Part shown: positions 9,591 to 47,800 of the stretch, piece by piece
How the letters are laid out: each line of letters starts with the position of its first letter
Numbering within the stretch: position 1 is the stretch's first letter
From: Onthophagus taurus
Taxonomy: Eukaryota > Arthropoda > Insecta > Coleoptera > Scarabaeidae
Assembly (NCBI RefSeq): GCF_036711975.1
Contig: NC_091967.1
Coordinates: forward strand, 23,746,001 to 23,810,000
Direction: 5' to 3'
Length of the DNA stretch: 64,000 bases
Program-made: the position numbers and the translations under genes
The notes under the pieces: generated by a model
The model's database searches: none
Told to the model about the DNA's origin: nothing
Seen by the model: only the letters and a program-made list of their open reading frames with translations

Positions 9591-9594
9591 CTGT

Positions 9595-17600: not shown

Positions 17601-18107
17601 AAAAACAGTATTCTTTATAATGTTTTTATCTAATTGTTCAAAAATCTGTTTAAGACAAACTTCAAATTCAGGTGTGAGTCGTGTAACATCAGGTTTAAGT
17701 AAAATACAAATTCCATCTATTGAAGGCAATTCAGAAATTAAACTTAAAGTCATTTCACTATTCATGGTATCATAATCTAGTCCTCGAGTATCCCCAACAC
17801 CCGGTGTATCAATAACCTCCAAGATAATCCCATGTTCCTCATCATTAAAGGTATATATAAAAGGTTTTTGAGTGGCTGATTGTCCTGTTCCGGGTATCTC
17901 AAATTCACTTTTACCCACTTCAATAGTTTCCATAGAATTATCGTCCTTATATAAATTAAATTTGGTTGGCACAAGCACATTACATCTCCCTTTTGCGATT
18001 TGATGCACGGATTTTTCAGAAAAATAGTTACCAAACATGTTTACAAGCGTTGATTTTCCAACACCCGTTTGTCCCAGTAACAGTATTCTTACTCTTCTTG
18101 ATGCCAT
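11700..18107 (-). CDS. AIG1/IMAP-like GTPase, three exons, 527 aa
   Basis: Exons on the minus strand are 18107-17356, 12592-11975 and 11913-11700. Splice phases agree at both junctions: AG + T gives Ser, GA + G gives Glu. The ATG at 18107 (context AAAATGGC) starts MASRRVRILLLG; an in-frame ATG upstream at 18173 is less likely. Residues 1-220 form a P-loop GTPase domain: GQTGVGKST (Walker A), DTPGVGDTRG (G3), FLYTHGRMRN in the G4 position. The pattern fits the AIG1/septin-like family. Exons 2-3 encode a charged alpha-helical, probably coiled-coil C-terminal half (RRLLEPLIKLVVLYNYAI, RELDKDVIAEIKDQETAKKA). Intron 1 is 4,763 bp and full of repeats; intron 2 is 61 bp. It is likely a cytosolic or membrane-associated GTPase; immune or vesicle roles known for GIMAPs are not shown here. 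Confidence 0.88.
12844..13165 (+). pseudogene. BEL/Pao retrotransposon fragment (protease region)
   Basis: Translation gives AAYLPTQKPSNSNWKQLQDI, then PLADNDYWSQRPTDII, and after a frame change LGADVYAQLIQESCHVCS. This matches the protease-to-linker region of BEL/Pao retrotransposons, where 'LPSQ...W..L..L.LADP.F..P..ID.ILGADVY' is typical. It is a short relic inside intron 1 of the GTPase gene, with no LTRs found. Confidence 0.6.
13206..13440 (+). mobile_element. Possible PIF/Harbinger transposon 5' remnant
   Basis: 13206-13320 contains repeated GTGTCCACTTGAGA and GTGTCCACTAG words and matching inverted CTCTCAGGAC-like stretches. At 13383 an ATG begins MDVNKIASAIVLYKI, the sort of N-terminus seen in insect Harbinger nucleases. 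The frame stops quickly in an A run and passes into a minisatellite. The call is weak. Confidence 0.3.
13480..13800 (+). repeat. Short-unit degenerate minisatellite
   Basis: Irregular copies of GAAGACTAGATATTGCTGGC and variants (AGACTAAGTATTGCT, AGACTACATACTACTACT) repeat every 20-40 bp. A close relative of this motif makes the array at 20080-20800 beyond the other end of the gene. Confidence 0.75.
13950..14160 (+). pseudogene. LINE RT fragment (thumb region)
   Basis: The frame ending at 14056 reads FTIITKNLELTVNNTRIEKL and DKFKYLGTWLSENWT, the segment after YADD in many LINEs (FKYLGt.i..d). Only about 60 residues survive. Confidence 0.55.
14186..14473 (+). repeat. Duplicated 280-bp unit, copy 1
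   Basis: This stretch (AACATAACAATGGCTTTCAC ... TTTTCAAATCTGATAATAGT) is repeated with few differences at 16862-17131. In both places it is followed directly by a complete MITE. The two copies flank the satellite-carrying element at 14609-16861. Confidence 0.85.
14474..14608 (+). repeat. Complete 135-bp palindromic MITE
   Basis: Starts GTGTTAATTAATTATCGTAC and ends with its exact reverse complement, GTACGATAATTAATTAACAC. Inside, GACGTCATCATTGC is inverted to GCAATGATGACGTC. Other copies lie at 17132-17265 (complete), 1331-1372 plus 5078-5180 (split) and 18548-18618 (half). Confidence 0.9.
15887..15926 (-). ncRNA. Hammerhead-like ribozyme motif
   Basis: On the minus strand: GTCTCTCT, then CTGATGA, a T and a GGC-loop-GCC hairpin, GAAA, ACCGGT as a minimal stem III, then TAGAC, which can pair with GTCT as stem I. 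The core CUGANGA...GAAA order fits the hammerhead. Penelope-like elements are known to carry hammerheads with minimal stem III. Activity is not shown. Confidence 0.55.
16212..16248 (+). ncRNA. Hammerhead-like ribozyme motif (second arm)
   Basis: Plus-strand counterpart of 15887-15926: CTGATGATGGC, a loop, GCCGAAACCGGTTAGAC. The core bases are intact. The stem II loop differs (GTAC in place of GTAA), and stem I is weaker because the 5' strand reads ATCT. Confidence 0.5.
16862..17265 (+). repeat. Duplicated 280-bp unit copy 2 plus complete MITE (17132-17265)
   Basis: Repeats 14186-14608 almost base for base, including the MITE. Because both copies of the unit have the MITE at the same point, the duplication is later than that MITE insertion, or the MITE and unit moved together. 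Confidence 0.85.
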
Positions 18108-18179
18108 TTTCGACTTATTTATTTTAGAAGGCACAAAACTAAGCCACTGAAATGCTGGAGTAACGAACAACACCTAAAT

Positions 18180-23990: not shown

Positions 23991-24229
23991 GTAAAACCAG
24001 CAAGTGCAATTATCTTGGTTATTATTATAGGCGAAGTATTATAACTAACAATAAGACATTATGGACACTTTTTTACAGAAAATTTGATGACGTAGTCAAA
24101 AAAATTTTTCAAAAAAAAAGGGGCTTAGGTTCACTAAGACTATACGTGAGCAAAATATCCGAACACAATTTTTAAACACCTGGTATAAAGAAACTCTTTA
24201 AATAAGCGCCATCTCTAGGGAGATTAACT

Positions 24230-24598
24230 CTATATTAAAATTGATCACAATTTATAACGGGTACAATTTTAAACTTAAGATCCTAAGCTTTCTGGTATAA
24301 CTTAAAATTATCATTAAATAATACATAATAGAACAGAAAATGCTATTTAACTAAATACTATTTACTATTAAAGTTAAAATAAGGCTTGTTTATATAAAGA
24401 AAACTTTTTAGTAAACGCCATCTTGCGCCATCTATAGGATCTTCTCAATGACTAAAATTGATTATAATTTTTTAGGTTATATCGTTTTAAACCTAAATTA
24501 AACTTAAATTTGAAGTTCACATAGGTTTAACTTTCTCCGGCGAGATTTAAAGTAAAGGTAGTTGTTCGTACTACGGAATAAAAAGATTAATTGTGAAA
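24230..24598 (+). promoter_or_regulatory. Upstream region of gene A, shared with gene B
   Basis: Blocks such as AAAATTGATTATAATTTTTT AGG, TCCGGCGAG and GATTAATTGTGAAAATGG occur in the same order upstream of gene B (39110-38905, minus strand). The distal part (about 24290-24365) recurs inverted at 39165-39240 and at 41445-41515. It probably holds promoter and 5' UTR; no TATA box or start site can be fixed by eye. Confidence 0.5.
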
Positions 24599-27500
24599 AT
24601 GGATACAGAACCAAAAGAAGTGGTCCCACCATCAACAGATTCTGGCTCTAAAAAAACCGTATTAAAAGAAACCCCTTCAGTAAATGCAAATAAAAATGCA
24701 CTGGCAAAACAGCCAATAACGGAACAAACGAATCTCCTTAAAGAATATTTTAACAGCGTCGCAAATCGTGAAGTTTTACATTTAAATGTAAAATCTGTAA
24801 CCCCGGTCCTTTCAGTCAATTTAGGGATTGATTTGAAAATGGTTTCAACTCGCATGAAGTATGTGTTAGCAGAGGCATTATGTTATTTTATGAAAGTTTG
24901 GCCTGGATGGTCCACTACAGATTACAAGAATCCGTTATTAAAAGATGACTGTTTTTCCAAATATCAAGATTATTTGCGATCAAAATTAATGTATATCATT
25001 GATAATGAAAGCCAATTTCGTAAGGATGGTGACTTTCAAAGAGGGGAAACGGTTTCTGTGGAATGTCAAACAGATATACCATCAAAAACTAATAAAGCAG
25101 AAGCTCCTTTTAATTTGGTTATAACTGGACAACCAAGTGTTTTGAATAATATTGTTTTTATTGAAGTAGAAAGTAAGAATTTATTTTACTTATTTTATTT
25201 ATTTTTATTTCCTAAAAAATTCTATAATTTTTTGTGTGTGGAGGTTTTCTTTTATTATTTTATTATGAAATCATTACACCATTCCCTCCTTTAACTATTT
25301 ATTTCTAAATCATTACAAACGACGTTTTGGGACTATTCCCATCATCAGGTTTAATAATTTTTGTCATCTAAAGAAACAACAATTCAATGATTTATGTAAC
25401 TATAATTATTTAACAATGAAAACATTTATTATACCTAAACCACAATATGTAGAATACGACTCTTACCAAAAACTTTTTGCAATTTTATCATTGATCATCT
25501 TTTAATTTCTACCCATCTCATCACGCCTACACATCACGTCTTTTTGAAAATTTCTCAACAAGGTCAAATTTGAATTCTATTCTTTGTTCCCTCGCTCTAT
25601 TATACAGGGTGTTTCAGGCTTTTGTAGCAGGACTTTAACAGTCGATAGATCTTTTAAAATTAGCTCAAAAACTTCATATAAACATAGGTCGAGAAACGCT
25701 TTGTTTTGAAGATACAGGGTGTTTGAGTTAAATTTTTTAATTGATTTTTATTTAATATTACACGTGTATTTCAACCGATTATATTCAAATTTGGTATACG
25801 GAGGTTTTTTGGCATGATAAAGATGATTCTGGAGTGCGTTTTACTATAGCGCTCTGTAACGTATTCTTTACGGATTAAAATAACAATAACTTTTCTGACA
25901 GTATACTTTTTGGCTTTTTGAATAAAAATTCTTATAGTCGGTACTTTTTTAAGCAAAAATGGTACTCTTATCAAAATGTGTTAAAGTTGATCGATTTCAA
26001 GATAATCCGCTTTTTATTATTCGATACAGACCAATTTTTTTTGAGGATTGTTAAAGATAGGTATAATAATGTTTGCCATTGAAACAAAGTAGGTAAATTC
26101 ACTAATGTTTTAGTTTATTGTACCAAGTGTCAAATCAGCAGTAGTTGTTGATCGGTGTTAAATTAATTTTTCTTATTCGTTAACGTGTTAAATTCAATTT
26201 TCTTGTTTATTAACGTGCTAAATGTATTACTCTTTTTCCTAATCGTGTTAAATTGTTTTTTTTTACCATTTTATAATTTTTTGTTTGCTGCATAAAAACT
26301 TTATAAAATGCCGTTTATTTTTCCTAACCATGAGTTAGCGGATATTCATTTTGTTTATTGGTTTGCAAACGAAAATTCAGCAGATGTAGCCCTAGAGTAT
26401 AGGAAAAGATATCCAAATAGAAGACATCCGCATTCTTCTGTGTTTGTGAAAGTGCATAGACAAATAGTTGAACAAGGGCTAAATAATGACGGGTAGATCG
26501 TAATAATGACAATGTTACACTGCAAAGAAACTCTAGAAGAAGAATTTTGCGTGAGTTCGATAGAGACCCCACTACGTGTGTTAGAAGTTTCGAATGCCTT
26601 ACGAATTTCTAAGGCGCGTGTTTATCGCCTTTTAAAACATGATCATAGACATGCTTATCATTTACAACCCTTGCAAGGATTGCAACAAGGCGATGAAGAA
26701 CGGCGTGTAACGTTTTGTCGGTGGATTGCTAAAGCATCAACAAACGAGACTTTTTAAATAACGTAATGTAGATTGTAAACTTTCACAATTTACATGTTTT
26801 GCTATCCCAACGCAATTCGGCCACGAAACTTCCAACATGAATTTAGTGTCACCGTCTAGGTAGGTGTTTATAATAATCATGTTTTCGTGTCATTCGTGGG
26901 CACACATTTTTTAACTATCTTTAACTATCCTCTAAAAACATTGGTCTGTATCGAATAATAAAAAGTGGATTATCTTGAAAACGATAAACCGAGGGGTATT
27001 TCGCAGGGGAATTTTGGTGTACAATCTTCAGGAATTAGTAAGGAATTAGTGTGGAATTAGAGGAATTAGTGGGGAATTTGGGGAATTACTCTGGAAATTC
27101 GGGGAATTAATAAGAGAATAATGGAATTAGAAAAAAATTGGAAGAATCTGGAAGCGAAGTAGATTGCGCAAAATGGCGTCGTGTCGCATAAAACTGCTAA
27201 CGCGTGATCGCCCTCTTTGATTTTGGTTCTACAAACGCATGGGTGTAGTTATTTCCCTATTTGCATAAATAAATCGAGAACAGTGGTATATCACAAGTGA
27301 GAAGTGACCGAAAATTTACGTGAAATTTAAGTGAAATCCGAAAATTTATAAAATGTTACCAGCACACCAACAGGTCCTACTTTGGATGGTCGAATATTTC
27401 AAAAAGAAAAGAAAATCACACAAAAAAGAAATTCAAGCATCTGTGCCGAGATCTGTGTCTAGTAATCAAGAAGGGGCTCCTAAGAAGAGGGTTAAAACTT

Positions 27501-30500
27501 CTGTTGAAAATTCAGAATTTTTAAATGAAGAATCTCCTGAGGAATTAGACAATCCCGAGGATAATCCCAGGGGGATTATTAATCAGAGACCTGTCGTAAA
27601 CCGAGCCGTGAACTTAACAGATGAAAATGCTTTAATTTTTCGAAATTTGAAGGCGTGGGCAAAATCGAAAGCAGAAACTAATTTATGGGAAAAGCTTCAG
27701 CATAAATTTGATGATATTAAAGTTGTAACTTCGTTGGACCAACATGACAGTATCTTCTCCAAAGTAACCTGCTTCTGCAACGCGACATACAAACTTCCCA
27801 AAATACTTAAACCTGGATGGATGAAGGAGGAAGCTAAAAATTTGGCATCAGAATTATGGGATTTTCCTCAGACGGCGATACTCGGCTTTTAAGAGCTATG
27901 CGTTTAAATACTTTGAAGTCTCGTTTAGCACCTGAATATAAAAAAAATAACAAAACAACCCCAAAAGATTCTGAGCTACTCCATTCTTTGCCAGTTCCAG
28001 ATTGGGAGTGGTACCACTGCAACTTCGAAAAAAATGATGAATGTTATGTACAGGCACCACCCATATTTTAACAAAAATGCGTACTCGTTTCCTAAAATCA
28101 GGAATAAATTTGCCAATTGGGAAATACACTGCCACCTCTAGTCATCTCAGGGAATTGATCTTAAAGGTTCCAAAAGACAAACATCTCCTGACAGATTCTG
28201 ATCTCAAAAGTGAAGACAAGATGAATTTTGCATCCGCAGAAAAAATGTGCAGTTTGATAGTAATTGAACAACTGAATAAGGAAATTCCGCAAAGTGAAGG
28301 TAGTGTGGCGTATCTTAAGCTTATGTACTACATCGAATCGTCGTTCTTAAATTCCAGCACTGAGTTGGGTACTAGATTACATCGCATCTGGTATGTTGTA
28401 TTTTTTACTACGATCTGGAGAGCCTGGATTCAAGGAAAAAAAGAATATAAAATAACAGATAACTTTTTAACCAGTAATTGTTACCTTTGTATCGAGATGA
28501 ACGCCCACGCTTTGATTAAACTAATATGGAAGCTTAAAAGCGGTGAGTTAAAACCAGAGATGTTCAGTATCGGTATTTTTGGTAGCCAAGCATGTGAATC
28601 CTTATTTCGGGCTGCCAGGTCCATGACCTCCACGTATTCAACAATAATAAATTTTAGTATAAAGGATATGCTAAACCGAGTTGAGAGAATTAAGACAACA
28701 ATTGATACAATAAACGATCTTAGGGGAACTTTTACATTTCCAAGGGAAGACAAAAGATTACAAAACAGCCTGAAGAAAGAAAATTTACCACGTGAAAAAG
28801 AAATTCTCAATTTGGATATCAAAGCTACAGTTGAAGAAGCTTTACAAAATGTCATAGAGGACATGAAACAATTTGGAATCAATGCACAAGAAAATGATTG
28901 GAAATATATGCAAGTACCGTTAATAAGACACAAACAAAATAACGAAGTAACACAGGAGAATGAAGACATCGACGAAAACCCCGAAGAAAATGAAATTGAC
29001 CAAGATGTGGCAAAAACGAATAATATCAGTAATGATGATGATATAGTTATGGACGAGGTTATGGACTTAATTTCTAACGAGAGTTCTAATGAAGATCGCG
29101 AATGTGATAAATTAATTCCTTACGCTTAAAATAAAATTCAAAAATTTTAAGTCATTATACCTCTTGTAACAACTATCCTGGGACACACTGTATATTATTT
29201 AGTATTGTAAATCATGAGTTATTAATCAAGTGTTTGGGATAAAAATTATTTAACAAAATATCATATATTTTTTGTTTTATTTGTTTCAAAAATGGTTTAT
29301 CTGTCAATTTTATTGCTCTATACAGGTGTCTCAGCGAGACCGGTCATTAGACGTTTCTGGGGTTCTGGCGAAAATAAAAATTTGAAAATTCAAACTTAAG
29401 TATTATCAATTACGATCTCTTCGACTAAAATATTTTCAGATTTCTTGCACTTCCGATTATACCGGAAGTCGCAACCTACTTTATTTTTTTAAATGGACCT
29501 GTACATTTTTACATATTTGGATTTGTCTGTTTTCAAGGTTTATAAATAACTTTACTTTTTGTAATTTGATTCGGCCGTTCTCGAGTTATTCGAATTTTTC
29601 TAGAAAAATCTGCGCCAGCAGACATTTGTTCAAAAAATCAGAGAACACTCAGAACATGCTTAAGCAACATGATGGAGTATGTTTTGGTGCCGAGAACGGC
29701 TGTCTAGAACGTTTGGTCACAAAAAAAATGAAGTTATGGTGCTTCCAAGTTTCGAAAAGTTAACGTGCCATAGTAAAGTGACCAAACGATCTAGACAACC
29801 GTTCTCGGCACCAAAACATACTCCATCATGTTGTTTAAGCATGTTCTGAATCATAAATTGATATCTTAAAAATCGAGTGTTCTATGATTTTTTGAACAAA
29901 TGTCCGCTGGAGCAGATTTTTCTAGAAAAATTCGAATAACTCGAGAACGGCCGAATCAAATTGCAAAAAGTAAAGTTATTTATAAACCTTGAAAACAGAC
30001 AAATCCAAATATGTAAAAATATACAAGGTGTTCCATTTAAAAAAATAAAGTAGGTTGCGACTTCCGGTATAACCGGAAGTGCTAGAAATCTGAAAATATT
30101 TTAGACCAAGAGAACGTAATTGATAATACTTAAATCTGAATTCTTAAATTTTTATTTTGGCCAGAACCCCAGAAACGTCTAATGACCGGTCTCGCTGAGA
30201 CACCTGTATATATAATTGTTCATCGTGTTTATAATTTGTGATTTTGGGTGATTACTGTGGTAATTCAATAATCTATCACTACTTATATCTTATTTATACC
30301 ATTTCGTCTTTATTATGTTATTGTCCTTATCGATGATTATTGACATATCCAAAAAACTTATTTCCACCGTGAATTTTAATCTATCGTTATAATCATTAAA
30401 AACGTTCAACAATTGGGAATATTACCCCTTAGGCAAGATAATTAATAGATCATCTATACATATACTTCGTTATCAACAAAGGTTTTATCGGTGTTTTAAT

Positions 30501-32459
30501 CAACTGTGTGTCTAATAAATCATTTAAAACTATCCCGCTTAAATTTTCGCTTAAACTCGACCCCATTGGTAATCCAAAGATTTGTCTATAATATATTTCA
30601 TTATACAGTGTGTCCATAAAGTAACGGATATAGGTGATATTATGAACGGTTTATGGAAAAATACGTGAAACGGGTCTAAAGATTTAAATTTTTTGCAATT
30701 GTTTGGTGTAGATTTTAAATTTCTTTCGCAATTTTTAAGCGAGTTATGACGTCATCGGTATTTTTTTCAAATGGCAATCCCCCATTTTTATTACGGAATA
30801 TGAAAGAAGATTTTTTTCTGAATCTAATACAGTCAATATTAATATTGCTTACATAAGAAAATTTTCGAGAAAAATTACTTTAAAGTTTAATTACTTCAGA
30901 TTAGTTGACATGATGAAAATAGCAGTAGCCATGAGTAACTATGGTAACCAATTAGTTTAAACAATTTCCTAAGTGTCAAAAACTGATTTAGTAAGTAGTT
31001 GACCTCTTTAATAAAACATATTCTGATCACCAACTCATTAGCCAAAGTATGGTGAGCCTAGCTGTGACTAAATTTATACAGCATGGCCATCTCTCGAAAC
31101 ATTTCTGGAAGTCTGGCCTACTAAATGTTGCAAGGGAAGTTCAACCAATCGTGGTTTTGGCTGGGGAAGAAAGCCCTCATGTTACTGTAAGGAGTATTGG
31201 ATCTAATTTGGACATTAGTAAATCAACGGTTTATAAAATTTTAAAACCCGCAAAATATCATTCCCATAAAGTAAACCTGATTCACGAGCAATGAATCGTA
31301 GTTTTTGCAACGATGACGAAGACTTTGTCAAAAACATAATTTTTTCGAGGAAGGGACATTTACGTCGTTTGTAATGACTTAGAAATAAATAGTTAAAGGA
31401 GGGAATGGTGTAATGATTTTATAATAAAATAATAAAAATTTCTTTTTATTTTTAGATAACATTTTAATAAAACAGCATTTAGAGAAACCATGGAAACAAT
31501 TATGTTCAATGACATATTTTTTAAATCATCCTTATGTTAAGATTAGTGTTGATTTACCTAAAGTTCGATTTTCACGATCTAACGTCCATGTTTATAAACG
31601 TTATATAACAGATGGTGGGGACACAACTACTTGCCCCCCAACCGACTTTATTAGTGAAGTTGTGAACACCTTTCCAAATTCCACACCTAAAGTTTATTCA
31701 TATGACTTTATATCCGCTTATTTTAAACAATTAACATCCATATTGACGAAATATGACGTTAAGAATCATCTTTTAATTCGAAGCATCTTTGGCGAGTATT
31801 TACAAGATATTAAAGATTGCAATATGCATGGGGGTACCATGGCAGCACCATTTATGGTAACTTATAACATTGGTGGAAAAGTTTATGTTCGTAACAAAAA
31901 AATGGTTGTTAGTACTAGTAAAAAGTAAAACAAAATTTAATTAAAACCAATTAAATAGTAAAAACTATTTTGTTTTAGCAAAGATGCAAATGCAATAAAT
32001 TTTTGCGAAATCCTAACTCCTAAAGTGACATTTGCACTCCAAGAATTTAATGTTGTTGAAGATACAAATGCAAAAGAAATTTCTTTCATTGACTTAAACA
32101 AAATAGAGTCAATGTCTAAAGAGGAACATTTAACACTAATAAATGCTTTTAATAATTGCGTAACGTTTCATTGTACGTTGTGCAATAAAGTCTATCAAGG
32201 AGAACGTTGCTATTCAGATTGTTTGGACCATTTTCGATTTTTACACAAAGGCGAGCAAGCGGTTGTATGTTTTAAATGTCGGAGGACGTTTGAAGTAATT
32301 AATTTGGCGTCTACTCGATGGGCTCATAATTGCCAAGTCACTCAAATGTTATTTAAAATGGAAGATGGTAAAGGAGGAGGGGAAGGCAGTGAAAATGTAT
32401 CTATGAGTCAAGGGGGAGTTGATGGTGATAAATCTAAGAGTTTAAATGATAAAGTTTGA
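24599..32459 (+). CDS. Gene A: unknown duplicated gene, three exons, 507 aa
   Basis: Exons are 24599-25172, 31456-31924 and 31979-32459; the phases agree (A+AT, AA+C). The ATG at 24599 has context AAAATGG. I do not recognise the family. Residues 1-60 are polar and probably disordered; 60-150 are a helical domain (MKYVLAEALCYFMKVWPGW, DYLRSKLMYIIDNESQF). Exon 2 is a compact conserved domain (YFLNHPYVKISVDLP, TTTCPPTDFI, MAAPFMVTYNIGGKVYVRNK). Exon 3 has a Cys/His-rich, zinc-finger-like module (FHCTLCNKVYQGERC, DCLDHFRFLH, CFKCRRTF, RWAHNC) and a Gly/Ser-rich tail. Intron 1 is 6,283 bp and contains a nested Penelope-like element; intron 2 is 54 bp. Paralogue B (37339-38907) is nearly identical in exon 2 (469 nt in both), arguing for selection on the protein. 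A nuclear or nucleic-acid-binding role is only a guess from the Cys/His module. Confidence 0.8.
25317..25353 (-). ncRNA. Degenerate hammerhead-like motif at a Penelope terminus
   Basis: Minus strand: AAACCTGATGA, T and a GGGA-ATAG-TCCC hairpin, AAAACGTCGTTT. Stem I AAAC/GTTT and the CUGAUGA box are intact, but the expected GAAA reads AAAA, so it is probably inactive. Confidence 0.4.
26308..26757 (+). pseudogene. DUF4817-type mariner transposase, N-terminal part
   Basis: The start MPFIFPNHELADIHFVYWFA and VALEYRKRYPNRRHPHSSVF followed by KVHRQ is the DUF4817 helix-turn-helix of insect mariner-like transposases. After a stop at 26495 the second helix-turn-helix follows (VLEVSNALRISKARVYRLLK, then HPY-like DHRHAYHLQPLQGLQQGDEE and RRVTFCRWI). 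The DDE catalytic part is missing; only a scrambled trace remains to about 26860. Non-functional. Confidence 0.8.
27353..29129 (+). pseudogene. Unclassified transposon-like protein, two frameshifts
   Basis: Three frames (27353-27892, 27856-28071, 28041-29129) join into one protein of roughly 570 aa. The N-terminus is basic (FKKKRKSHKKE). The middle reads NLTDENALIFRNLKAWAKSK, PDWEWYHC and LTDSDLKSEDKMNFASAEKM. The C-terminal block has RLHRIWYVVFFTTIWRAWI, DNFLTSNCYLCIEMNAHALI and GSQACESLFRAARSMTSTYS, followed by an acidic tail. I recall this kind of protein as a multi-copy, uncharacterised insect family, which suggests a DNA transposon, but I cannot name the superfamily. The frames shift near 27880 and 28065. 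It lies inside the composite mariner in gene A intron 1. Confidence 0.6.
29323..30206. mobile_element. 884-bp fold-back element with about 400-bp inverted arms, TA target
   Basis: TA + CAGGTGTCTCAGCGAGACCG at 29323 is matched by CGGTCTCGCTGAGACACCTG + TA at 30206. The arms (29323-29720 and 29778-30206) are near-complete inverted copies with a spacer of about 57 bp. They include ACTTCCG...ACCGGAAGT and CCGAGAACGGC/GCCG...CTCGG stretches. No ORF. It interrupts Penelope RT sequence that continues on both sides. Confidence 0.9.
30207..30603 (-). pseudogene. Penelope-like reverse transcriptase fragment
   Basis: Minus strand: YYRQIFGLPMGSSLSENLSG IVLNDLL (the PLE 'GLPMGSPLS' motif), a DDLLIILPKG block in the YVDD position, then ISFLDMSIIIDKDNNII and WYK...DRLLNYHSNHPKSQI, the post-catalytic PLE signature. 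The frame continues across the fold-back at 29320 with AIKLTDKPFLKQIKQKIYDI LLNNFYPKHLI. Frameshifts are present. The fingers and endonuclease are missing. Confidence 0.82.
30604..31345 (+). mobile_element. Truncated mariner-like element with HTH relic
   Basis: Starts TA + CAGTGTGTCCATAAAGTAAC at 30603. The frame 31049-31294 gives TVRSIGSNLDISKSTVYKIL followed by KPAKYHSHKV, a Tc1/mariner helix-turn-helix. No right TIR was found before Penelope terminal sequence resumes at about 31350. Confidence 0.6.
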
Positions 32460-32849
32460 AGTTAAGTATTAATTTATATTTGTAAAAATATTTACTAGTT
32501 ACTAATCATTTATTTTATTAGTATCGAATTAAGATTAAGTGCTAAAGATAAGTATTTTTTTTTACCATTACAATAAAATATAAATATTATAAAATTAGTT
32601 TTAATTATTTAACCCGTTTTTGTCCAGTGTTCCAATATTGGAACAGCGACAGTTTTACCCCACCACTTCCGCATTTTCGTGGTTTTTTGCATTCTGCAAG
32701 CCTCATCTTGTCTGTCATAGTCTCATACGTTATTGGGAAGTGCACTACATTGTTAGAATTCCCTCGTTTACAAATCTGACAGTGTACTATGCTCATGTTT
32801 ATAGTGCAAAAATGTTTGTTAAGATCTTGCCAAATTTTATGCGTTTATT
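32460..32849. other. 3' flank of gene A, AT-rich
   Basis: The start (TAAAGTTTGAAGTTAAGTAT, TTAAGTGCTAA-GATAAGTA) corresponds to the 3' flank of gene B (37338-37180), so the duplication extends here. An AATAAA near 32571 could serve polyadenylation. The rest is unassigned. Confidence 0.45.
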
Positions 32850-33320
32850 ATGGTAATTTACCGTTATTTTCGAATGTTCCAATTTCGGAACAATGGGAGT
32901 GATTTTCTATATAGGTACTGTTCTACCAAAGAGCTTATTGATTTGATGGAAAGTGATGAATTTTGGGAAGCAGACATTTATATTATTCCACCTAATGATG
33001 GAAGAGACTTTGAGGAAGATAGTGATGATGAAGAACTTCCTTCAGATATAAATCATTTGACTGAATTCGATAAAACCGCTCACATCGGAGACGCCGAAGA
33101 CAGATAATTCTAGTGAAGAAGACGATTTACCTCTTTCTCGTTTAATCAACACAAATTATAATCATTCGTCTAAAAGAAATGTGATTTGACTCCAACTTTG
33201 CCGCTATTTGTTTCACCAAGCCAATCTCGTACATACAACTTTACCGATGCTGTTTTTTGTTTTGAAAGTTTTTTTGATGAAGAAATATGCACTTTCTTGA
33301 ACGATATGTTTGTACTTTAT
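32850..33320 (+). pseudogene. piggyBac-like transposase N-terminal relic
   Basis: ELIDLMESDEFWEADIYIIP PNDGRDFEEDSDDEEL, then after lesions LTPTLPLFV and YNFTDAVFCFESFFDEEICT FLNDM. These match the order in piggyBac/PGBD transposases: acidic N-terminus with 'DIYIEPP', then 'F.p.elFelFFdDEv...i...TN.YA'. The catalytic core is absent and a tandem array starts immediately downstream. Confidence 0.55.
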
Positions 33321-33740
33321 GCTTAGCAAAAAAAGTTTTTCTGTATCATGCTTCGGATACCGATTTGCTTTCACACTCTTCTAATTTTCATATATTTGAA
33401 AAATTCTCTACAATGATGTATCTAGGAGCAAAAATGTTACAGGGCATTGTGTTAAGGGTACAATTTGCTACAACTTTTGTTGTAAAAGTTTTTCTGTATC
33501 ATGCTACGGATACCGATTTTTTTTAACGCAGTTCTAAATTACATACTTTTTGACAAATTCTCTATATTGATGCATTTGGGAGCAAAAATGTTACAGGGCA
33601 TTGTGTTAGGGGTACAATTTGCTACAACTTTTGTTGTAAAAGTTTTTCTGTATCATGCTACGGATACCGATTTTTTTTTTAATACTCTTCTAATTTTCGT
33701 ATTCTTGAAAAATTCTCTACATTGATGCATCTGGGAGCAG
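33310..33740 (+). repeat. Tandem array, about 155-bp unit, 3 copies
   Basis: Units marked GGAGCAAAAATGTTACAGGG C and GTTTTTCTGTATCATGCT recur near 33414, 33569 and 33724. The unit is related to the array at 39600-40640 (both contain TTTGCTACAACTTTTGT and AAAAGTTTTT). Confidence 0.85.
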
Positions 33741-33963
33741 GGCATTGTGTTAAGGGAACAAAGGTTGTTGATCCTTGTATTTCTGATCATAAGGCAGTTT
33801 CTTTTGAGTGTAAAATCATACACCTATCGTCTAAACAACAAGCTAGGCGTACTTATAGACCTATTACTGAACATGGATTGCTATATTTCTATAGGTGTGT
33901 GAAAAAAATCAATTTTTCCTTTGTTGAAGATACAAACGTAGACATAAACCAAAGAAATTGTAT
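33741..33963 (+). pseudogene. LINE endonuclease C-terminal fragment
   Basis: DPCISDHKAVSFECKIIHLS contains the SDHxxV box that closes APE-type endonucleases, followed by RRTYRPITEHGLLYFYRCV and NFSFVEDTNVDINQRN. A short piece, open in frame. Confidence 0.55.
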
Positions 33964-34337
33964 ACAGGGTGTCAGATAAAAAACGCCCCAAGCTGTAACT
34001 CTGTCATTTACATTCCAATTTTCATGAGCGAGGTATCAAATGAAATGGTTTGATGAATACTACGATTCATACTACAAATAAATTTTTTCCAACGCCATCT
34101 TCAAATTCAAGTGATTATTAACTTTTGTTTTTCAAATTGCTGCGTATATTTTTCTTCACGTCATTGGATAGAGTTTGTTTTTCTGACTCCATTGATGTAC
34201 AATACATACATTTTAAATGTAATATTAGCAGAGAAAAAACACCTGTATATGCAGGTTGTCATACAAGAATGCCGCAAGCTGTAACTCTGTCATTTACATT
34301 CCGATTTTCATGAGCGAGGTATCAAACGAAATGCCTT
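33964..34337 (+). repeat. Two direct copies of a mariner-type terminus
   Basis: CAAGCTGTAACTCTGTCATT TACATTCC(A/G)ATTTTCATGAGCGAGGTATCAAA(T/C)GAAATG occurs at 33997-34052 and 34271-34332. The first copy follows TATACAGGGTGTCAGA and the second TATGCAGGTTGTCATA, so both look like the same end of a TA-target element, in the same orientation. Confidence 0.65.
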
Positions 34338-34597
34338 CTTTGATCCATCAGTGTAGATGTAGATGGTCAACGTTTTGCCCGAGCTTGAATTGCTCTGGGG
34401 TATCGTTTCAATGCCAAAATGTGGCTTGCCTAAGAAAGTAGGTGTAATGTAGTCTGTGCAAGCTTTAAGGAGGGGTTGTTTTTCGAACAGCCTCACTCCA
34501 GAACTTACTCCGGACTATTCCCATTTTCACAACCTCGTTATCATTTACTGATTGCAATCGAAGCAACGCCATCACGGCCACCTCCCTGATAAAAATA
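34338..34597 (-). pseudogene. LINE C-terminal (RNase H side) fragment, split by a Tc1 element
   Basis: Minus strand: IFIREVAVMALLRLQSVNDN EVVKMG, then further down a TDGSK box (YIYTDGSK) typical of LINE RNase H. The upstream part is at 36353-36665. Removing the Tc1 element and one TA restores LPLD-IFIREVA in frame. Confidence 0.7.
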
Positions 34598-34702
34598 CAC
34601 TGTTGGAAATAATTCATGAGCACACGCTGTATAATCTGAACGCGTGTGTATAGCGCAATAAAATTTGGTATGGAAGTAGCACTAAAGTAGTGTAACTTAC
34701 TC

Positions 34703-35724
34703 TCACATGGAGAGCGTCACAACCCCGCCGTATATCCTCGAGTATCTACCGTGAGCTTCGCGTACCATAGCTACACCACATGGCATGGAGTCTATAAGTC
34801 GCTGTATTATAGCGAGAGTGATGGCCAACAATGCCACCTCAACTCGTCTCCATAGCTCCACAACGTTAGCCGGGGAAGCTAGATAACGTTGAAGTCTCCG
34901 ACCAGTCATGTCCCAAACATGTTCGATCGGATTCAGATCCAGAAAACGAGCTGGCCATGGAGGCATTCGTATACGGTGCTCTTCCACAAAGGTCTACACA
35001 ACACGCCCAATGTGCGGTCGGACGTTGTCGTGCATGTATAGCAGACCTGGGCGCTGCCGAACGTAGAGAAGCACAACGGACCGTAGCACCTCATCTACGT
35101 ATCGTTGACCCGTCATGGTCTGCTATACACGCAGCAGACGTGTACGTCCACCATGTGTAATCACACCCCATACCATAATGCTCGGTTGTCGGTGGATAGG
35201 GCGTTCTTGCACACACTGCTCGAGTAGACGATCACCACGTCTGCGACGAACTAAAATTCGCGCATCACCGGTGCTCAATTCGAATCTTGATTCGTCGGAA
35301 AGCAAAATGACCCTCTACTCGGCCACCCACTAATGCCTAGCGTCCGTGCCTAGAATCCGCTGTATCTCACCACGCGCGCGCAGTCTACTATCTACCAAAC
35401 GCCGCCGTACAGTTCGCGTAGTGAGTGCACCATCCCCTGCCGGTGGACAAACAGCTCCACGTTGCCTTGAGGAGGACGCACACGACGCTAAAGCGGTCAG
35501 CATAAGAGCGCGATCCTCGTATGCTGGGGTCGCGGCTGAAGGTACCTATGTCCTACCTCAGACCATTCTCGCCATGCCCGTTGCACTGCCGATAACGATT
35601 GCTCGAGACTATGCGCAATTTCACGGAACGATACACCCTCAATGTGCATACCCACAAACATTCCTCGCTTAAGTAACGCGATCATCCATTGCGCACAGAG
35701 TACGATAACAATGTGGTCCCTCAC
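34703..35724 (-). pseudogene. Tc1/Tc3-type transposase, frameshifted
   Basis: Minus-strand frames in order: 35724-35497 with FVGMHIEGVSFREIAHSLEQ SLSAVQRAWREW (helix-turn-helix); 35305-35123 with LSDESRFELSTGDAR and VMVWG-like IMVWGVITHGGRT (the DD region); 34987-34703 with PPWPARFLDLNPIEHVWDMT GRRL (the final DDE block). These are the three parts of a roughly 340-aa IS630/Tc1 transposase, broken by frameshifts near 35480-35310 and 35120-34990. The GC content is higher than that of its surroundings, suggesting a fairly recent arrival. Confidence 0.88.
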
Positions 35725-35917
35725 ACCACACTAAAAACGATCGGTATTTTCCATCCACTTCGGTCTCCATAGCGACGTGTTCCACTTGGAAGAGCGGCTC
35801 AGTCAACGTCAACAATGCCGCGACGGAACAACTCGAAACTCGATGAATAAACTCGTCTACAGTAAACCTTTGTGCTCCGCTAATATTATTAATTTATCTT
35901 CACGCGTTCAGATTATA

Positions 35918-36317
35918 CAGGGTGGTCCGGGCCTCCGGGCACAAAATTAACCTCATATACTAGAGCAAAAATGAGGACGATTCGTGAAAAAAAATTATTA
36001 TAAAAGTCTTCAAATGGCCTAGATATATCAGGCGTGCATTGATGCCGGCGGGAGTGCAACAAATTTTAGGGACAACCCTGTATAGCATGTTGCCGCCGCC
36101 CGATCAAAATTGGTTCAATGATTTTGCTTGATATTTGTTTACCCTGTACCAAATTTCAACGCTCTACCATAAATGGTATTGAAAATATTTAGAAAAATGT
36201 GTTAAAATTTCGGAACTTTGATGGCCCATATCTTGGCCATTTGAAGACATTTATAATAAATTTTTTTCTTTTAGTATATGAGGTTAATTTTATGCCCCGA
36301 GTCACCGGAACACCTTG
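35918..36317. mobile_element. 400-bp MITE inserted in the Tc1 right TIR
   Basis: TA + CAGGGTGGTCCGGGCC at 35918 and GGAACACCTTG + TA at 36317. Longer subterminal inverted sequence (TTAACCTCATATACTA / TATATGAGGTTAATTTTATG) is present. The TA target lies within the Tc1 TIR, whose two halves match the intact left TIR. Confidence 0.85.
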
Positions 36318-36352
36318 TATAGGGTATGTTCGTGAATTATTTCCAACAGGTA

Positions 36353-36665
36353 TCTAGGGGCAGCACGTTCAGCATAGTCTTCATCGCAATCGTAGGTGTA
36401 GATCTCATAGCGCTTGTGATTAGCAGGCAGGCCAGTCGTTGCAATTGATGCAGCAATTTAGTTTTATATGCATGTTGTAGTGCTGAGCACCAAACTATGG
36501 CTCCGTGAGCTACCATGGGTCTAATCACAGATGTGTAGATCCATATTGTAACTTTCGGATTTAGTCCCCAAGTATTCCCAATAACCCTTCGACACTGGGT
36601 CAGTATAATCGGTGCTTTTTTGGTTTTGCAACTAATGTGTGATGTCCAAGTTAGTCCAAGATAAC
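36353..36665 (-). pseudogene. LINE RT C-terminal fragment (upstream part)
   Basis: Minus strand: LTWTSHISCKTKKA, PKVT-like WGLNPKVTIWIYTSVIRPMV AHGAIVWCSAL, LQRLACLLITSAMRSTPTIA MKTMLNVLPLD. This is the C-terminal RT region of a LINE of the RNase H-bearing group. It joins the piece at 34338-34597 when the Tc1 element is removed. Confidence 0.75.
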
Positions 36666-36679
36666 ACTAAAATATTAGA

Positions 36680-37140
36680 GGTACTTGTGGAACTAGCCAT
36701 GGCCCCTCAAAAATTGCGTAGTGTAATAATAATGTTTGGGATCAGTACCGCCGGCATTGATCGTTTTACAGGACTTGCCATGACTCGGTCGCTGTTGAAA
36801 CACTGGCTATGCGTACAACGCCTCTCCTCTGCACCAAGACTAGTCTTCCGCGGTTGTTCTTGGTAAGTCCGGTAGCCCAAACTTCGCTACTATACATACA
36901 TCTTTCCCGATTTAAAGCAAGCCGTGTTTATGTGATCTCGGAACATACATTTGCTGTCCAGAAACAACCCCAGATACGTAACTAACATGCCGCTGTTAAT
37001 TGCGATCTCCATGATATTAAAAGTGACATCCAGCGGTATTCGCAGCCTGTCGTTTTGCACCTAGTGTTCTCAGATGTGCAGTTAGTCAACATCCTATTCA
37101 TAAAAAAGTTAATGCCATAAGTAGTTGGGGACAGAAAAAT
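36680..37140 (-). pseudogene. Second LINE RT fragment (R1/Jockey type)
   Basis: Minus strand reads VTYLGLFLDSKCMFRDHINT near 36960 and SSEVWATGLTKNNRGRLVLV QRRGVVRIAS near 36800-36880, RT thumb-region motifs. Stops intervene. It is different in sequence from the fragment at 36353-36665, so it belongs to another LINE. Confidence 0.6.
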
Positions 37141-37338
37141 CTTCCATTGAGCGGAGAATATCGGTAAAATACATTGTTAAAATTTTATAACATTTATTTT
37201 AGTGGTAAAAAATTACTTATCCTTAGCACTTAATTTAAAAACTAAGATAAAAAGATAATTATATAAGATTATTAAGTAATAGACATTTTTTAAGTATAAA
37301 TAGACTTAATATATTTAAAATTAAAACTTCAAACTTTA

Positions 37339-38907
37339 TTATTTATCGCCGTCAACTCCCCCTTGACCCACCAACACATTTTCACTTCTTTCCTCTCCTC
37401 CTTTTCCATCTTCCATTTTAACTAATCCTGGAGCGACATAGCAATTATTATGAGCCCATCGAGTCGACGCCAAATTAATTACTTCAAACGTCTTTCGACA
37501 TCTAAAACATACAACCGCTTGCTCGCCTTTGTGTAAAAATCGAAAATGATCCAAACAATCAGAATAGCAACGTTCTCCTTGATACACTTTATCGCACAAC
37601 GTACAATGAAACGTTACGCAATTATTAAAAGCATTTATTAGTGTTAAATGTTCCTCTTTAGACATTGAGGCTATTTTATTTAAATCAATGAAAGAAAGTT
37701 CCTTTGCGTTTTCATCTTCAACAACATTAAATTCTTGGAGTGCAAATGACACTTTTGGAGTTAAGATTTCGCAAAAATTTATTGCATTTTTGCTGGAAAT
37801 AAAAGATTTTTTTTTATTATTTAATAGGTTGTTATCATTACTTACTTCTTATTAATGCTAACAACCATTTTTTTATTACGAACATATACTTTTCCGCCAA
37901 TATTATAAGTTACCATAAACGGTGCAGCCATGGTACCCCCATTCATATTGCAGTCTTTAATATCCTGTAAAAACTCGCTGATGATGCTTTGAATTAAATG
38001 ATGATTGTTAATATTATACTTTGTCAATATGGATGTTAATTGTTTGAAATAAGCGGATATAAAGTCATATGAATAAACTTTAGGTGTAGAATTTGGAATG
38101 GTGTTCACAACTTCAGTAATAAAGTCTGTTGGGGGGCAAGTAGTTGTGTCCCCACCATCCGTTATATAACGTTTATAAACATGGACGTTAGATCGCGAAA
38201 ATTTAACCGAAGGTAAATCAACACTAATCTTAACATAAGGGTGATTTAAAAAATATACCATCGAAGGTAATTGCTTCCATGGTTTTTCTAAATGATTTTT
38301 TATTAATATGTTATCTAAAAACAGAAAGAAAATATTTTTAGGAAACAAAAATAAATAATTAATTCTGACTGTCTAATTCAATAAAAACAATATTATTCAA
38401 AACGCTTGGTTTTCCAGTTATAGCCAAATTAAAAGCAGCTTCTGGTTTATTAGTTTTCGATGGTATATCTGTTTGAGATTCCACAGAAACTGATTCTCCT
38501 CTTTGAAAATCACCATCTTTACGAAATTGGCTTTCGTTATCAATGATATACATTAATTTTGATCGTAAATAATCTTGATATTTCGAAAAACAGTCATCTT
38601 TTAATAACGGATTTTTGTAATCTGCAGTGGACCATCCAGGCCAAACTTTCATAAAATAACATAATGCCTCTGCTAACACATATTTCATTCGAGATGAAAC
38701 CATTTTTAAATCGATTCCTAAATCGACAGAAAGGACTGGGGTTACAGATCTTGAATTTAAATGTAAAACTTCACGATTTGCGATACTGTTAAAATATTCT
38801 CTAAGGAGATTAGTATGTTCCCTTGTTGGCTGTTCTGCTAGTTCATTTTTATTTGCATTTACAGAATCTGTTGATGGTCCAACCATTTCTTTTGGTTCTG
38901 TATCCAT
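37339..38907 (-). CDS. Gene B: paralogue of gene A, three exons, 486 aa
   Basis: Exons on the minus strand are 38907-38370, 38314-37846 and 37792-37339. Both introns are short (55 and 53 bp), with phases identical to gene A. The donor of intron 1 reads GTCAG rather than GTAAG, which is weaker but still GT. Against A, exon 1 lacks 12 codons in the disordered N-terminus (the SGSKKTVLKETP region), exon 2 has exactly the same length (469 nt), and exon 3 is 9 codons shorter. The Cys/His module (FHCTLCDKVYQGERC ... CFRCRKTF ... RWAHNNC) is kept. No stops or frameshifts, so it is probably functional. Function unknown. It lies head-inverted to A, with about 4.9 kb between their 3' ends. Confidence 0.8.
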
Positions 38908-41860: not shown

Positions 41861-44800
41861 ATGGGTGCAATAGCTAGTCGGCAAAGGGCCGGTGTTGAAG
41901 AAGCTGATGTGGTACCTAATTACGCGTACAAATATCCACCACCTTCTGGAAACTATTTTGGGAGCCACTTTATAATGGGGGGCGAAAGATTCGATACACC
42001 GCAACCTGAGGCTTACTTATTCGGCGATAACACTGATTTAAATTTTCTAGGAAGTCCCACAGCGGTATGTAATCACTTTGGTTAATAATGTACTTACTTA
42101 ACCTATATCTTTTGTTATAGTTTCCTTATCCACCTCCCCAACCAAATGAACCAACAAAAACCTTAAAAAGTTTGGTAAATGTCCGTAAAGAATCTTTAAG
42201 GTTTGTTAAAACAAATTTGGAGAACTGTAAAGTGCATTTAATTGATGATGAAAATGCTGATGTAGAGCTGGGGAAAGCTCCACAGTTTAATTTGGAATTT
42301 ACTTTTGATTGTGATGTTCCATGTGCTATTACTATTTATTATTTTTGTACTGAAGAGTATACAGCTAATGGTGTTAGGTAATGTATTTTTAAAAATTTAT
42401 TTAATAATCTTATTAAATTATTTTTGATTAGTTATATCCCTAAAGATCCTTTAATGGTCTCGGAGGTTTACCATTATAAGCGTGGAGCAAACCAACAGTT
42501 TGCACAACCAACACATGTTTTTTATCCCTCTTTATATAGTGATGATGAGCTTTTATATGATACCGATAGGAAAGTTATTCCAATAGCCATTCATTGTGTT
42601 GCTGAAAAAGGACCAGAAGGTAGAATTATCAAAATTGTAATAAAATTATACCATTAATTTTATGTTTTTATTAGATATGAGACAATCTCATACAACAATA
42701 GCTGTTGTTGAGAAAGGAATGGATGGAACACATATTTTAAAAGCTCTCAAACAGAAATTATTTGTTGATGGATTGTGTTATTTATTACAGGAAATATATG
42801 GGATTGAGAATAAACAAAGTGATAAAGTAAGATTTGTTCAAAAATAACCAAATGGAGTTGTTTTATATTTAAAAAATTATTTTTTGTAGTCTTCTAGTGA
42901 TGATGAAACTGATGATAATGGTTCTGATTGTGTGGTATGCATGAGTGAAGTACGAGACACACTGATTTTACCTTGTAGACACTTGTGTTTGTGTAATTCA
43001 TGTGCAAACACACTTCGTTATCAAACAAATAATTGTCCAATATGTAGAGCCCCGTTTAGGGCTTTATTACAAATCAGAGCATTACAAAAAACGTCAAATC
43101 CCATTTTACCACCTGTTAATTTACCAGATGTAAGTTTTATATTTTAATTGTCAGCAAGTACAGGGTTTGTCACGACTAATGGTGGAACGGATCTATCTAT
43201 ATATATAGCTTTTAGTTTTTGAGAAAACAATATTTGAAGTTTTGATAAAATTTTCGATGTTGCAATTTTCATGGATAACTTTCAAAATTCGCTATAAAAT
43301 TAATTTCTTGAAGGATTCTTGTGGAAATATCACCAATTATTAATTATAGTATTCTCTTTTTAATGCAACAAGCCGTTTTGAAAAATCGCTCTTAGTTTTT
43401 GAGAAATAAATTTTTGACATTTTTGACAATTTTTTCGAATTTTACAATTTTCGCCGATTAAGTTTTAAAAATTCGTATAAAATCCATTTCTTGGAATATA
43501 AGTATGAAAATTTCTTAAAGTGTTAATAAGAGTGTCCTCTTTCCAATGAACCAACATGTTTTGAAAAATAACTTTTAGTTTTTTAGAAAACAATATATGA
43601 AGTTTTGATAAAATTTTCGATGTGCAATTTTCATCGATAACTTTCAAAATTCGCTATAAAATTAATTTCTTCAAGGATTCTTGTGGAAATATCGCCAATT
43701 ATTAATTAAAGTATTAAAGTAACCTCTTTTTAGAGTTGCCTCGTTAGTTAAATCAGCATCAAAAAAGTTCATTTTGTATCTTGGATCCATGTAAGTTGAC
43801 ATTCTTACCCGCTTTCTTATTAATTTCAATTTTATTCAAATATCGCTGTAATGGGGCAATATAGGGTTGGGTTGGGTTGTGCATAATTTCTGATGCACTT
43901 CAAAAATGCATCAGAAATTATAACTATAATGGCCGGATAGATATGCCGGATATCCGGCCGAAGGGGATGCCAAATATCCGGTATCCGGCTTTTCGCAAAA
44001 TCACTATCCGTTCCATCACTAGTCACGATAAGCTGAGCTATATGTATGTGACAAACTACTGGCACTATATTTCTGGAAATTTGCATATAGCGTTTATCCA
44101 AGGTGCTCGTTTCAGCTAAAATATTTTCAGTTTTATTTATTTATTTATTTTATTTATTTATTGATATCGGGGAGCAACAACAGGACAAACCCAATAAAGT
44201 TGCTCCACATAATTATTATATACGAAAACCTTAAAGTAATATTTAATATGATTACAAATATGTTGTTATCTTAAATTAACATTATTAACATTATTAAATA
44301 TTTAAATTACACATGATGTGCGCAGTCTTCACAGCCTCGCGGACCGCAAACTTAATATTTCGTGGATTACTTGAAAAAAGATCGCAACTCACCCGATCCG
44401 CGGTTCTTTCCATCCTCAGAATAGGCGAGTTACGATATGCGTTTGTTCGTGGAGTGGGCATATAAAAAAGGAAGTCGTACCGTAACTGACGAGGAGGAAC
44501 ATGAAAATCAATTCTCGCCATCAGCGATGGGGAATCAGTATGACCATTGACAAGCTTGTACAAAAATAAAACGTCATTATATGCTCGTCGCTGGGAGAGC
44601 GTTAGCAATCCGAACATTTCACAACCAGACGCATAGTTACTGTACACTTGTTGGGTTTTATAACACAAATATTTAATCAGTCGTTTTTGGATTCCTTCTA
44701 ACCTAGTGATATATACGGAATATTGAGGATTCCAGATTACGCTACCAAAGTTTAAGATGCTGTTGACATATGCATTGTACATACTTATAATTGCGTTGTG

Positions 44801-47800
44801 GTTTGTGAAATCCTCGGAAGATCGCTTTATAAAGCCCAGCATTCTGTATGATCGAGCAACCACACCATCTACATGAACATTGAAACGTAGTTTTTGATCT
44901 AGTGTTACACCAAGATCAACTGTAGATGTAACTCGACGCAACTTATCATAGTTAAGGATGTAATCATATTTTATGTAATTCTTTTTCCTGGTGAATGTGA
45001 TGGTGTGACACTTAGAAAAGTTTAAGTGTAATTGATTACTTGTACAGAAATTGCAAATCCTATCAAGATCTGCCTGTAATTTAACACAATCGTCGATGTT
45101 TCGAATAGAAAGGTAAATTTTTAAGTCGTCAGCGTACATCAGGCAACGCGAATTAAGAATATTATTAAAAATGTCGTTTATGTAAATTAAAAACAGTAAA
45201 GGACCGAGATGACTGCCTTGCGGCACTCCGGATGTAGTGTGAATTAAGCGTGACTTATAGCCACCAATATGTACAGACTGAGAGCGATCGGACACGTATG
45301 AACCAAACCAACGCAACAAATTGCCAGAAATACCAAAAAGTTGCAATTTACTTACCAACAGAGAGTGATCAACTTTGTCGAAGGCCTTACTAAAATCGGT
45401 GTACACTGCGTCCACTTGAACATTTTCATCGAGCGACGCAAATAGAAAATCGGTATATTCTAAAAGATTAGTTTCGACTGAACGCCCGGAAAAAAAACCG
45501 TGCTGATTAGTATTAATACATCCACGAATTTGAAAAAATACACTGGCGTACACCAACTTCTCAAAGACCTTTCCAAGTATGGGTAATATAGATATTGGAC
45601 GATAATTGACAACGAAGTGTCGATCACCTGATTTAAAAATGGGTGCAACGTTGGCTCGCTTCCACGCATTCGGAAACACTCCCAGCTTAATGGATTTATT
45701 ATATATCAGCTGTAAAGGAACTGATATTGCCTGAGCACAGTTTCTGACCAGTATAGCAGGTATACCGTCAGCACCAGGACCCTTATTCAAAGCTACTTGA
45801 CGCAATGCCCCCTCCACTTCAATGAGATCAAAGTCATGAATGAGTACGCGCGGAGAATCAACCGTCCCCACCGCATCATAATGGGGAGCAGACGGTGCTG
45901 CGAAAACTGCACTAAAATAATTCGCAAATAACGAACAGATGGCATCGCCGCTCGATGCCTCAACCCCATCCAGAATTACAGTTGATGGGATACCCGTACC
46001 GCCTCTTCTGCGTTTGAGATATGCCCATAACTGCTTTGCGTCCAATGCAACACCATCCTGCACACGTTTAATATACGCTTTATAATCCTGATCAATCAGG
46101 TATTTAGAGCGTCCGCGCAGAAGACGAAACGTTAAATAGTCCAACTGATTTCCACAACGCTTCCACTTTTTATGCGCTTTATACTTTTCCTTTATTACTT
46201 TTATTGTGCTCTTAGAGAACCAAGCCGGGTAACCATTCACAGGATGGCATTTGTGTGGTACAAATTTTTTAATGGCTAAAGACAAATGATTATAGAAAAT
46301 ATCCGTAGCAGTGTTGACATTATTTACATCTGCAAATACGGTTTCCCAATTAATGTCATTAAGGTAATCACTGATATCATTAAAAGCAGCTCGTTTAAAG
46401 TTATAAGTAGTAGGAAGTCGTTCAGTGAGGTTGATTACAGGTGCAATACTGCACGCCAACTCAAGTGACGAATGAGCTACGTCTTCTGGAAGTAGAGAAG
46501 AATCACTTAGTTGAATTCTAGATACAGTTACAAAGCGTTCCAAGACCAAATCTAACGTGTTGCCAGATATGTTTTTAAAAGAGTTATGCTGATTAAATTC
46601 ACAAAGTGAAAGGACGTCTAAGAAATCAGTTGAACGTGGGCTAGCAGGAGAGGCAGTACACATTCCAAAACCATCGATATTCCAAACTATCTCGGGCAAG
46701 TTGAAATCGCCTCAAATCAAAAATTTATCATCACGGAAGCGGTCAACAATGTGTCTCAATTCATTACAAAATACATTTAATGCAACATTATCATTAGGAG
46801 GAATGTAGATACAACAAATATGCAGTTTGCTTATACGCTTATCGCAATAAAGTGTTACACAAATAGCTTCATTGGCTGGAAACCAGTCTGACCTCTGAAC
46901 ACTGCGAAGACTCGCACTAACACCTATCAGCACACCACCCCCCCGAGACACACCACCCGGAACCGCACCAACACGATCTCTTCTGTAGATGTTGTAGGAA
47001 GTAGGAAGAAGCTCGGCCGAATTGATACCAGGGTGGAGCCACGTCTCCGTTAGGCATAGCACATCGACGTTGGTATTTAGCGCATTATTATAAATAGTAA
47101 TCAGTTTGGTACGAACGCCACGGACGTTTTGATAATATACTGAAAGGCCAACCATTTTTGAGCGTTTGTTTTATTAATTCTTTTTAATTATTATATTAAA
47201 TTAATTATTTAAAGGCGTGAGAGGTCATCAGGAGATCTTATATGGACTACCGGCGATGATTCATTCTTTCTGGCAAAAATCTTGCAATCACGTGTCCATA
47301 CAAAGCGATAGTTTTTATCTTTAGCAATCCCTCTCGTTCGAGCAAACAAGGCCTTATTATCCGGCGTCAGATGATCATTAACGAAACAGCTCTCCCCCAC
47401 CCCCTCAATATGCAAACCCTGTCGAGAACCAGGTACGGACATCCTTTTGTTGATTGCCGCCGCCAAAAAAGCATCGCGCTTTAGGCGGCTGCAAAACCGC
47501 ATCACTATGGCCCGTGGAGCTTTATTTTGCTTATCAAAGTGTGGAACACGATGAATGGCATCAACGTCTGTCGATGAGAATTGGACTCCTACATGTTTGG
47601 CAATGTTGTCTACAATAGACAAGAGATTTTCATTTTCACGTTGGGGAACACCATGAATTTCAACATTACTCCTACGGGAGTACTGCTCAACCTCATCCAG
47701 CCTCGCAGTCAAACTCGTTACCTGCTCTCGTAAGCGGCTATTTTCAGTGGTTAACTGATCAACAATTTTTATCTTTCCATTGAACGATTCAAGCAACTTT

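Follow-up and report, generated by a model that had tools for sequence, protein, structure and literature searches.

C2H2 zinc finger proteins are defined by tandem CX2C-X12-HX3-5H repeats that are separated by linkers of about 7 residues. In BED fingers, the loop between the Cys and His ligands is longer and variable, and the last ligand is either His or Cys. We analyzed a 64,000-nucleotide stretch of the Onthophagus taurus genome (hereafter, the window) and found two genes, designated A and B, whose proteins carry a C-terminal Cys/His module that resembles the first of these types. A and B are recent paralogs (dS 0.24) within a probably cellular family that has at least five intact members (A–E) in this genome. 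The features of these genes are listed in Table 1.

Table 1. Positions of genes A and B and their parts (window numbering) and of the other three family members (contig numbering).
Feature	Contig	Positions	Strand	Remarks
Genes A and B	C2
Gene A proximal 5' flank, possible promoter and leader		24440..24598	+	Differs from gene B at 23 of 159 positions
Gene A exon 1		24599..25172	+	Donor GTAAGA; start codon included
Insertion in gene A intron 1		25250..31437		Inverted repeats of 76 nt (97% alike) at both ends; other repeats inside
Gene A exon 2		31456..31924	+	469 nt
Gene A exon 3		31979..32460	+	Stop codon included; bears the Cys/His module
Gene A paired zinc finger signature		32172..32333	+	Residues 413-466; position derived from exons
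Gene A AATAAA poly(A) signal		32572..32577	+	Placed like the gene B signal, as judged by eye
Gene B exon 1		38370..38907	-	Donor GTCAGA
Gene B exon 2		37846..38314	-	469 nt
Gene B exon 3		37339..37792	-	Stop codon included
Gene B paired zinc finger signature		37441..37605	-	Residues 399-453; position derived from exons
Gene B AATAAA poly(A) signal		37193..37198	-	
Gene C	C5	1139240-1143004		452 aa spliced, open
Gene D	C5	1148792-1149942		429 aa spliced, open
Gene E	C8	1733893-1735318		466 aa spliced, open

Splicing at GT-AG borders yielded two intact three-exon genes, in agreement with the original prediction: gene A on the plus strand (24599-32460, 507 aa) and gene B on the minus strand (38907-37339, 486 aa). 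They lie tail-to-tail within one contig, and their main homologous blocks are inverted (24196-25218 and 31430-32592 of A versus 39308-38335 and 38340-37177 of B), as expected from the inverted duplication that had been proposed. The homology extends past the coding parts on both sides and is broken in A by a large intron; in the outer 5' flank, three shorter matches are repeats and the edge of homology is uncertain. Exon 2, described at the outset as equal in length and nearly identical in protein sequence between the two genes, is indeed of the same size in both, and its protein is 88% identical. Compared with A, gene B has 3 nt extra in its coding sequence and lacks 6 nt (2 codons) where exon 3 begins and 36 nt near the N end, the latter being the 12 codons whose absence had been predicted. 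A loss near the C end was also predicted correctly, but by alignment it comprises 24 nt (8 codons) rather than 9 codons. The donor of intron 1 in gene B, at position 38369, is GTCAGA, compared to GTAAGA in gene A.

The signature C-X2-C-X15-H-X4-H-X7-C-X2-C-X15-H-X1-2-C was present in all five family members, with identical spacings except for HX2C at its end in B, and a Trp residue was found two residues ahead of the last His in each protein. The eight predicted ligands (C399, C402, H418, H423, C431, C434, H450 and C453, B numbering) are invariant in the five-protein alignment. In contrast, the extra cysteines of a CYSDC motif, which had been listed as part of the module, are not kept in D and thus are not family-wide ligands. 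Based on ligand order, the 7-residue spacer and profile matches to known structures, the module most plausibly comprises a C2H2-like finger and, after it, a C2HC-like one, each with three extra loop residues. Like the C2H2 fingers of ZBTB20, CTCF and ZIF268, it is a tandem pair in which CX2C is followed by the H..H/C order, and its inter-finger spacers (KGEQAVV, KGEQEVV, KGEEPVK and KPESTFT) start with KGE or KPE; the CX2C, HX4H and X7 elements occurred in five of five members. When the family profile was compared with PDB, the matching region (positions 396-457) had ZBTB20 as its best match (E 1e-5 when two stretches were combined and 0.0075 for the best one), and CTCF (0.012) and Aart (0.038) were further matches. 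Unlike C2H2 fingers, both fingers have X15 rather than X12 between the second Cys and the first His, the second finger ends with HX1-2C, and no Pfam model reached its cut-off for A or B. The best finger match of C, D and E in Pfam, judged by E-values only, was zf-H2C2_2 (0.042). Zn_ribbon_11 (PF11682) matched the first finger in two of the five members (E 0.018 in B and 0.081 in A), but this weak match was below the 24-bit cut-off and covered only 21 residues. Short Cys/His motifs may also match by convergence, which weighs against the C2H2 reading. Nevertheless, the novel metal-binding fold suggested previously is unsupported, as ligand order, spacer and PDB match all point to a C2H2-type module.

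Ahead of the fingers, the proteins contain a variable N terminus and a conserved orphan region of approximately 340–370 residues. No full-length domain was found by Pfam, as anticipated by the original prediction, and nothing convincing was detected for the orphan region; PHROGs gave single-member matches only, with E-values of 0.04 or worse. Thioredoxin_17 (E 0.0071), DUF3519, Hormone_3 and DUF7560 were dropped as candidates, each being present in only one of the five members. Many residues of the orphan region are invariant in the five-protein alignment, and the shared motifs, FLxxPYV and Y-V/S-R-N/S ahead of the last intron, suggest a folded domain. AlphaFold models, whose alignments consisted of the two window sequences and not of the five members, were poor for both exon 2 (mean pLDDT 36.9) and exon 3 (mean pLDDT 40.8); in the latter, the second finger appeared as strands followed by a helix (pLDDT about 50) and the first finger was mostly helix.

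These proteins probably represent a fairly fast-evolving cellular zinc finger family, likely nuclear, which binds DNA, RNA or protein and whose N-terminal region recruits other molecules. The zinc finger and cellular-family parts of this explanation are firmer than the regulatory role. The finger pair would bind zinc and may serve as a nuclear module for binding nucleic acid or protein, as C2H2 pairs often do, and the orphan region would recruit partners, so that the proteins might regulate chromatin or transcription. The main alternative, which we regard as possible rather than probable, is a cellular family in which the zinc module formed by the Cys/His pair is structural or binds protein, and the orphan region carries a cytoplasmic or enzymatic function. 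This would fit the many invariant residues in that region, and also the C2HC type of the second finger and the long loops of both, which are unlike those of classical DNA-binding fingers. However, the spacer between the fingers is as long as a classical C2H2 linker and begins similarly (KGE/KPE), and the best PDB matches are fingers of C2H2 transcription factors. It is also conceivable, although doubtful, that the orphan region constitutes an as yet undescribed domain, and that the family is lineage-restricted, fast-evolving and repeatedly duplicating. Germline chromatin and transposon-control proteins often keep duplicating, and A and B would be a young pair that splits a role of this kind.

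Relatives were searched for in a single eukaryotic genome, the window's own (290.8 Mb, 33 contigs), and the family is known here from that genome. All 14 matches of the B protein and all 13 matches of the D protein fell in five loci, as did 13 of the 16 matches of the E protein, and the other three (E 0.15 to 2.0) were dismissed as chance; short or very diverged copies might escape these searches. What had been taken for a two-copy family therefore has five intact members. Every member has a phase 2 last intron at a matching place, and the first intron, in phase 1, is shared by four and absent in D. Because introns are kept, the family appears to have duplicated at the DNA level and not by retroposition. 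Over aligned codons, A is 88% identical to B, 60% to C, 47% to E and 27% to D, the last being only 24-27% identical to any other member. In the five-protein tree, A and B were split from C, D and E with support of 92 (ultrafast) and 95 (standard), and the protein branch was longer in B (0.097) than in A (0.035); the grouping of D with E (63 and 69) is not to be leaned on. C and D are located at a cellular locus, as indicated by their neighbors: an Mlf1IP gene lies between them, a Voltage_CLC gene is found upstream, and downstream is a MutS-domain gene (MutS_I) that we take to be Msh6-like. The one neighboring frame of E that was scanned had no Pfam match. The copies may have spread by DNA-level duplication, perhaps from the Mlf/MutS locus.

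The original prediction had also raised the possibility of an old domesticated or viral gene. If the proteins descended from a transposase or another mobile-element protein, for example of the BED-finger hAT type, the element would have vanished and the gene would have been amplified. We consider this unlikely. A has a weak zf-BED (PF02892) match (E 2.2; 8.8 bits versus a 20.6 cut-off), and the long C-to-H loop of BED fingers and the transposon-rich window would suit such an origin. BED was not among the eight Pfam families found up to E 1 for the five members, nor was any transposase family, and the proteins are without transposase partner domains. Moreover, intron positions are conserved and two of the five members, C and D, are placed among conserved cellular genes. 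Every match of the B and D proteins fell within the five intact genes, and no decayed copy was seen in the genome searches, although short fragments might be missed; thus, these limited searches revealed five loci with five intact frames and not the many dispersed decayed copies of a known transposon or viral family.

An endogenized viral gene family, which could account for rather fast evolution and for the lack of a recognized cellular family, is very unlikely given that introns are shared across the family and that no confirmed relative was found in viral contigs or in phage records. Scans of viral contigs rested on few peptide patterns (two short ones for the family alignment) and on a collection that may lack insect viruses; they returned 8 stretches with exon 2 and 20 with the family alignment as query, none of which was confirmed, and none of nine such stretches in bacterial and archaeal genome contigs was confirmed. 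Ten frames of the window were scanned as well, and none matched a viral Pfam family, three having no match at all. The domestication and viral proposals were therefore unsupported, and we retain the cellular zinc finger family as the best explanation.

Both A and B evolve under purifying selection. Their dN/dS is well below 1, at 0.26 (Nei-Gojobori; bootstrap 0.17-0.38; dN 0.062, dS 0.240), with values of 0.28, 0.22 and 0.31 for exons 1, 2 and 3, respectively. When changes were polarized by C and E, leaving 42 of the 133 differences unassigned, the synonymous and nonsynonymous changes numbered 21 and 17 in A and 25 and 28 in B; since nonsynonymous sites are about 3.6 times more numerous, both branches are constrained. 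We observed 57 amino acid changes, fewer than in any of 2000 neutral simulations that used an equal number of substitutions (133; simulated mean 92.8 changes, lowest value 75); stop codons were absent from only 11 of these simulations. All four coding gaps between A and B (3, 36, 6 and 24 nt) are multiples of 3, compared to one of eight internal gaps found in the flanks and intron 2 (1, 14, 4, 4, 5, 6, 2 and 1 nt; this count omits two gaps at the ends of the flank stretches). Other pairs are constrained yet not slowly evolving, their dN/dS being rather high: A-C, B-C, A-E, B-E and C-E span 0.43-0.49 (A-C 0.43, A-E 0.44), and the D pairs, all with saturated dS, yielded 0.37-0.53 in three cases and no dN/dS value for D-E. 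The idea that A and B are pseudogenes in decay, or an assembly artefact caused by haplotypes, is extremely improbable: heavy transposon load and the 6.2-kb insertion in A would fit decay, but dN/dS, the constraint on both branches and the neutral simulations speak against it, as do dS of 0.24 and the inverted orientation in one contig against an artefact. The evidence for selection covers most of the period that has passed since the duplication, and a very recent loss of A could have occurred.

The proximal 5' flank differs between A and B at fewer positions than do intron 2 and the 3' flank (35 of 123 differing; Fisher p 0.005). This 159-nt stretch, however, was picked after the repeats had been seen, and over the longer 299-base flank 65 of 280 positions differ, which is near the other non-coding stretches. 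The flank was accordingly demoted as a conserved promoter, and at most hints at one kept in both genes.

Intron 1 is 6.28 kb long in A and 55 nt in B, the difference being a 6.2-kb insertion that is absent from B. A DNA search with window positions 24599-26000 gave at least 43 matches (40 of 351 candidates were scored, so that copy numbers are lower bounds). Among the 43 matches listed, only three covered exon 1 (the self match plus two fragments of B), 2 were at 25257-25588 and 38 within about 25595-26000; this concentration identifies the first part of the gene A intron as genomic repeats. The arms of the terminal repeats have diverged little compared with the A-B dS, suggesting that the insertion occurred after the duplication. 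An inverted duplication would have produced the A/B pair, and a transposon would later have entered intron 1 of A. The insertion carries two open frames (27335-27892 and 28041-29129), neither of which had a Pfam match, and for the second of which the PDB search gave nothing better than E 0.5; perhaps they encode an undescribed or diverged transposase. At 29319-30210, the insertion also contains a hairpin-forming element with long nested inverted repeats (arms of 179, 151 and 72 nt, 94-97% alike).

Additional features were observed elsewhere in the window. The interval separating A and B contains a short, acidic open frame (32823-33107, plus strand) that presumably resembles the N-terminal part of piggyBac-type transposases. 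At 1847-3814 (plus strand), BED finger, DUF659 and hAT dimerization pieces in adjacent frames mark a broken hAT transposon, and another hAT piece, weak and below the cut-off, was found at 8792-9643 (minus strand). Long LINE-type open frames are present at 44294-48213 (minus strand) and 60162-61862 (plus strand), with reverse transcriptase matches at 44294-46711 (805 aa, stop-free) and over the second frame. An open frame on the minus strand (17352-18173) matched the AIG1 family of GTPases (E 1.1e-10); the frame at 11971-12630 on the same strand, which had no Pfam match, could be a further part of an AIG1-type gene. Outside the window, telomere-type repeats were not informative about the taxonomic group: six tandem TCAGG units had no match in the genome, and six TTAGG units had two overlapping matches at a single site on C3, compared to 10 for the reversed control.

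A word search of titles and the openings of abstracts did not find the family named, a result that applies to those parts of the literature and does not by itself show its absence from print. With this analysis, an unlabelled part of a transposon-rich region resolves into a defined gene family that has a ligand signature open to testing, evident selection on both A and B, and a candidate place of origin between Mlf and a MutS gene. If its orthologs have already been catalogued as 'uncharacterized zinc finger protein', the family would be ordinary. If, on the other hand, the orphan region is a new domain, the family would offer a handle on a lineage-specific regulator.
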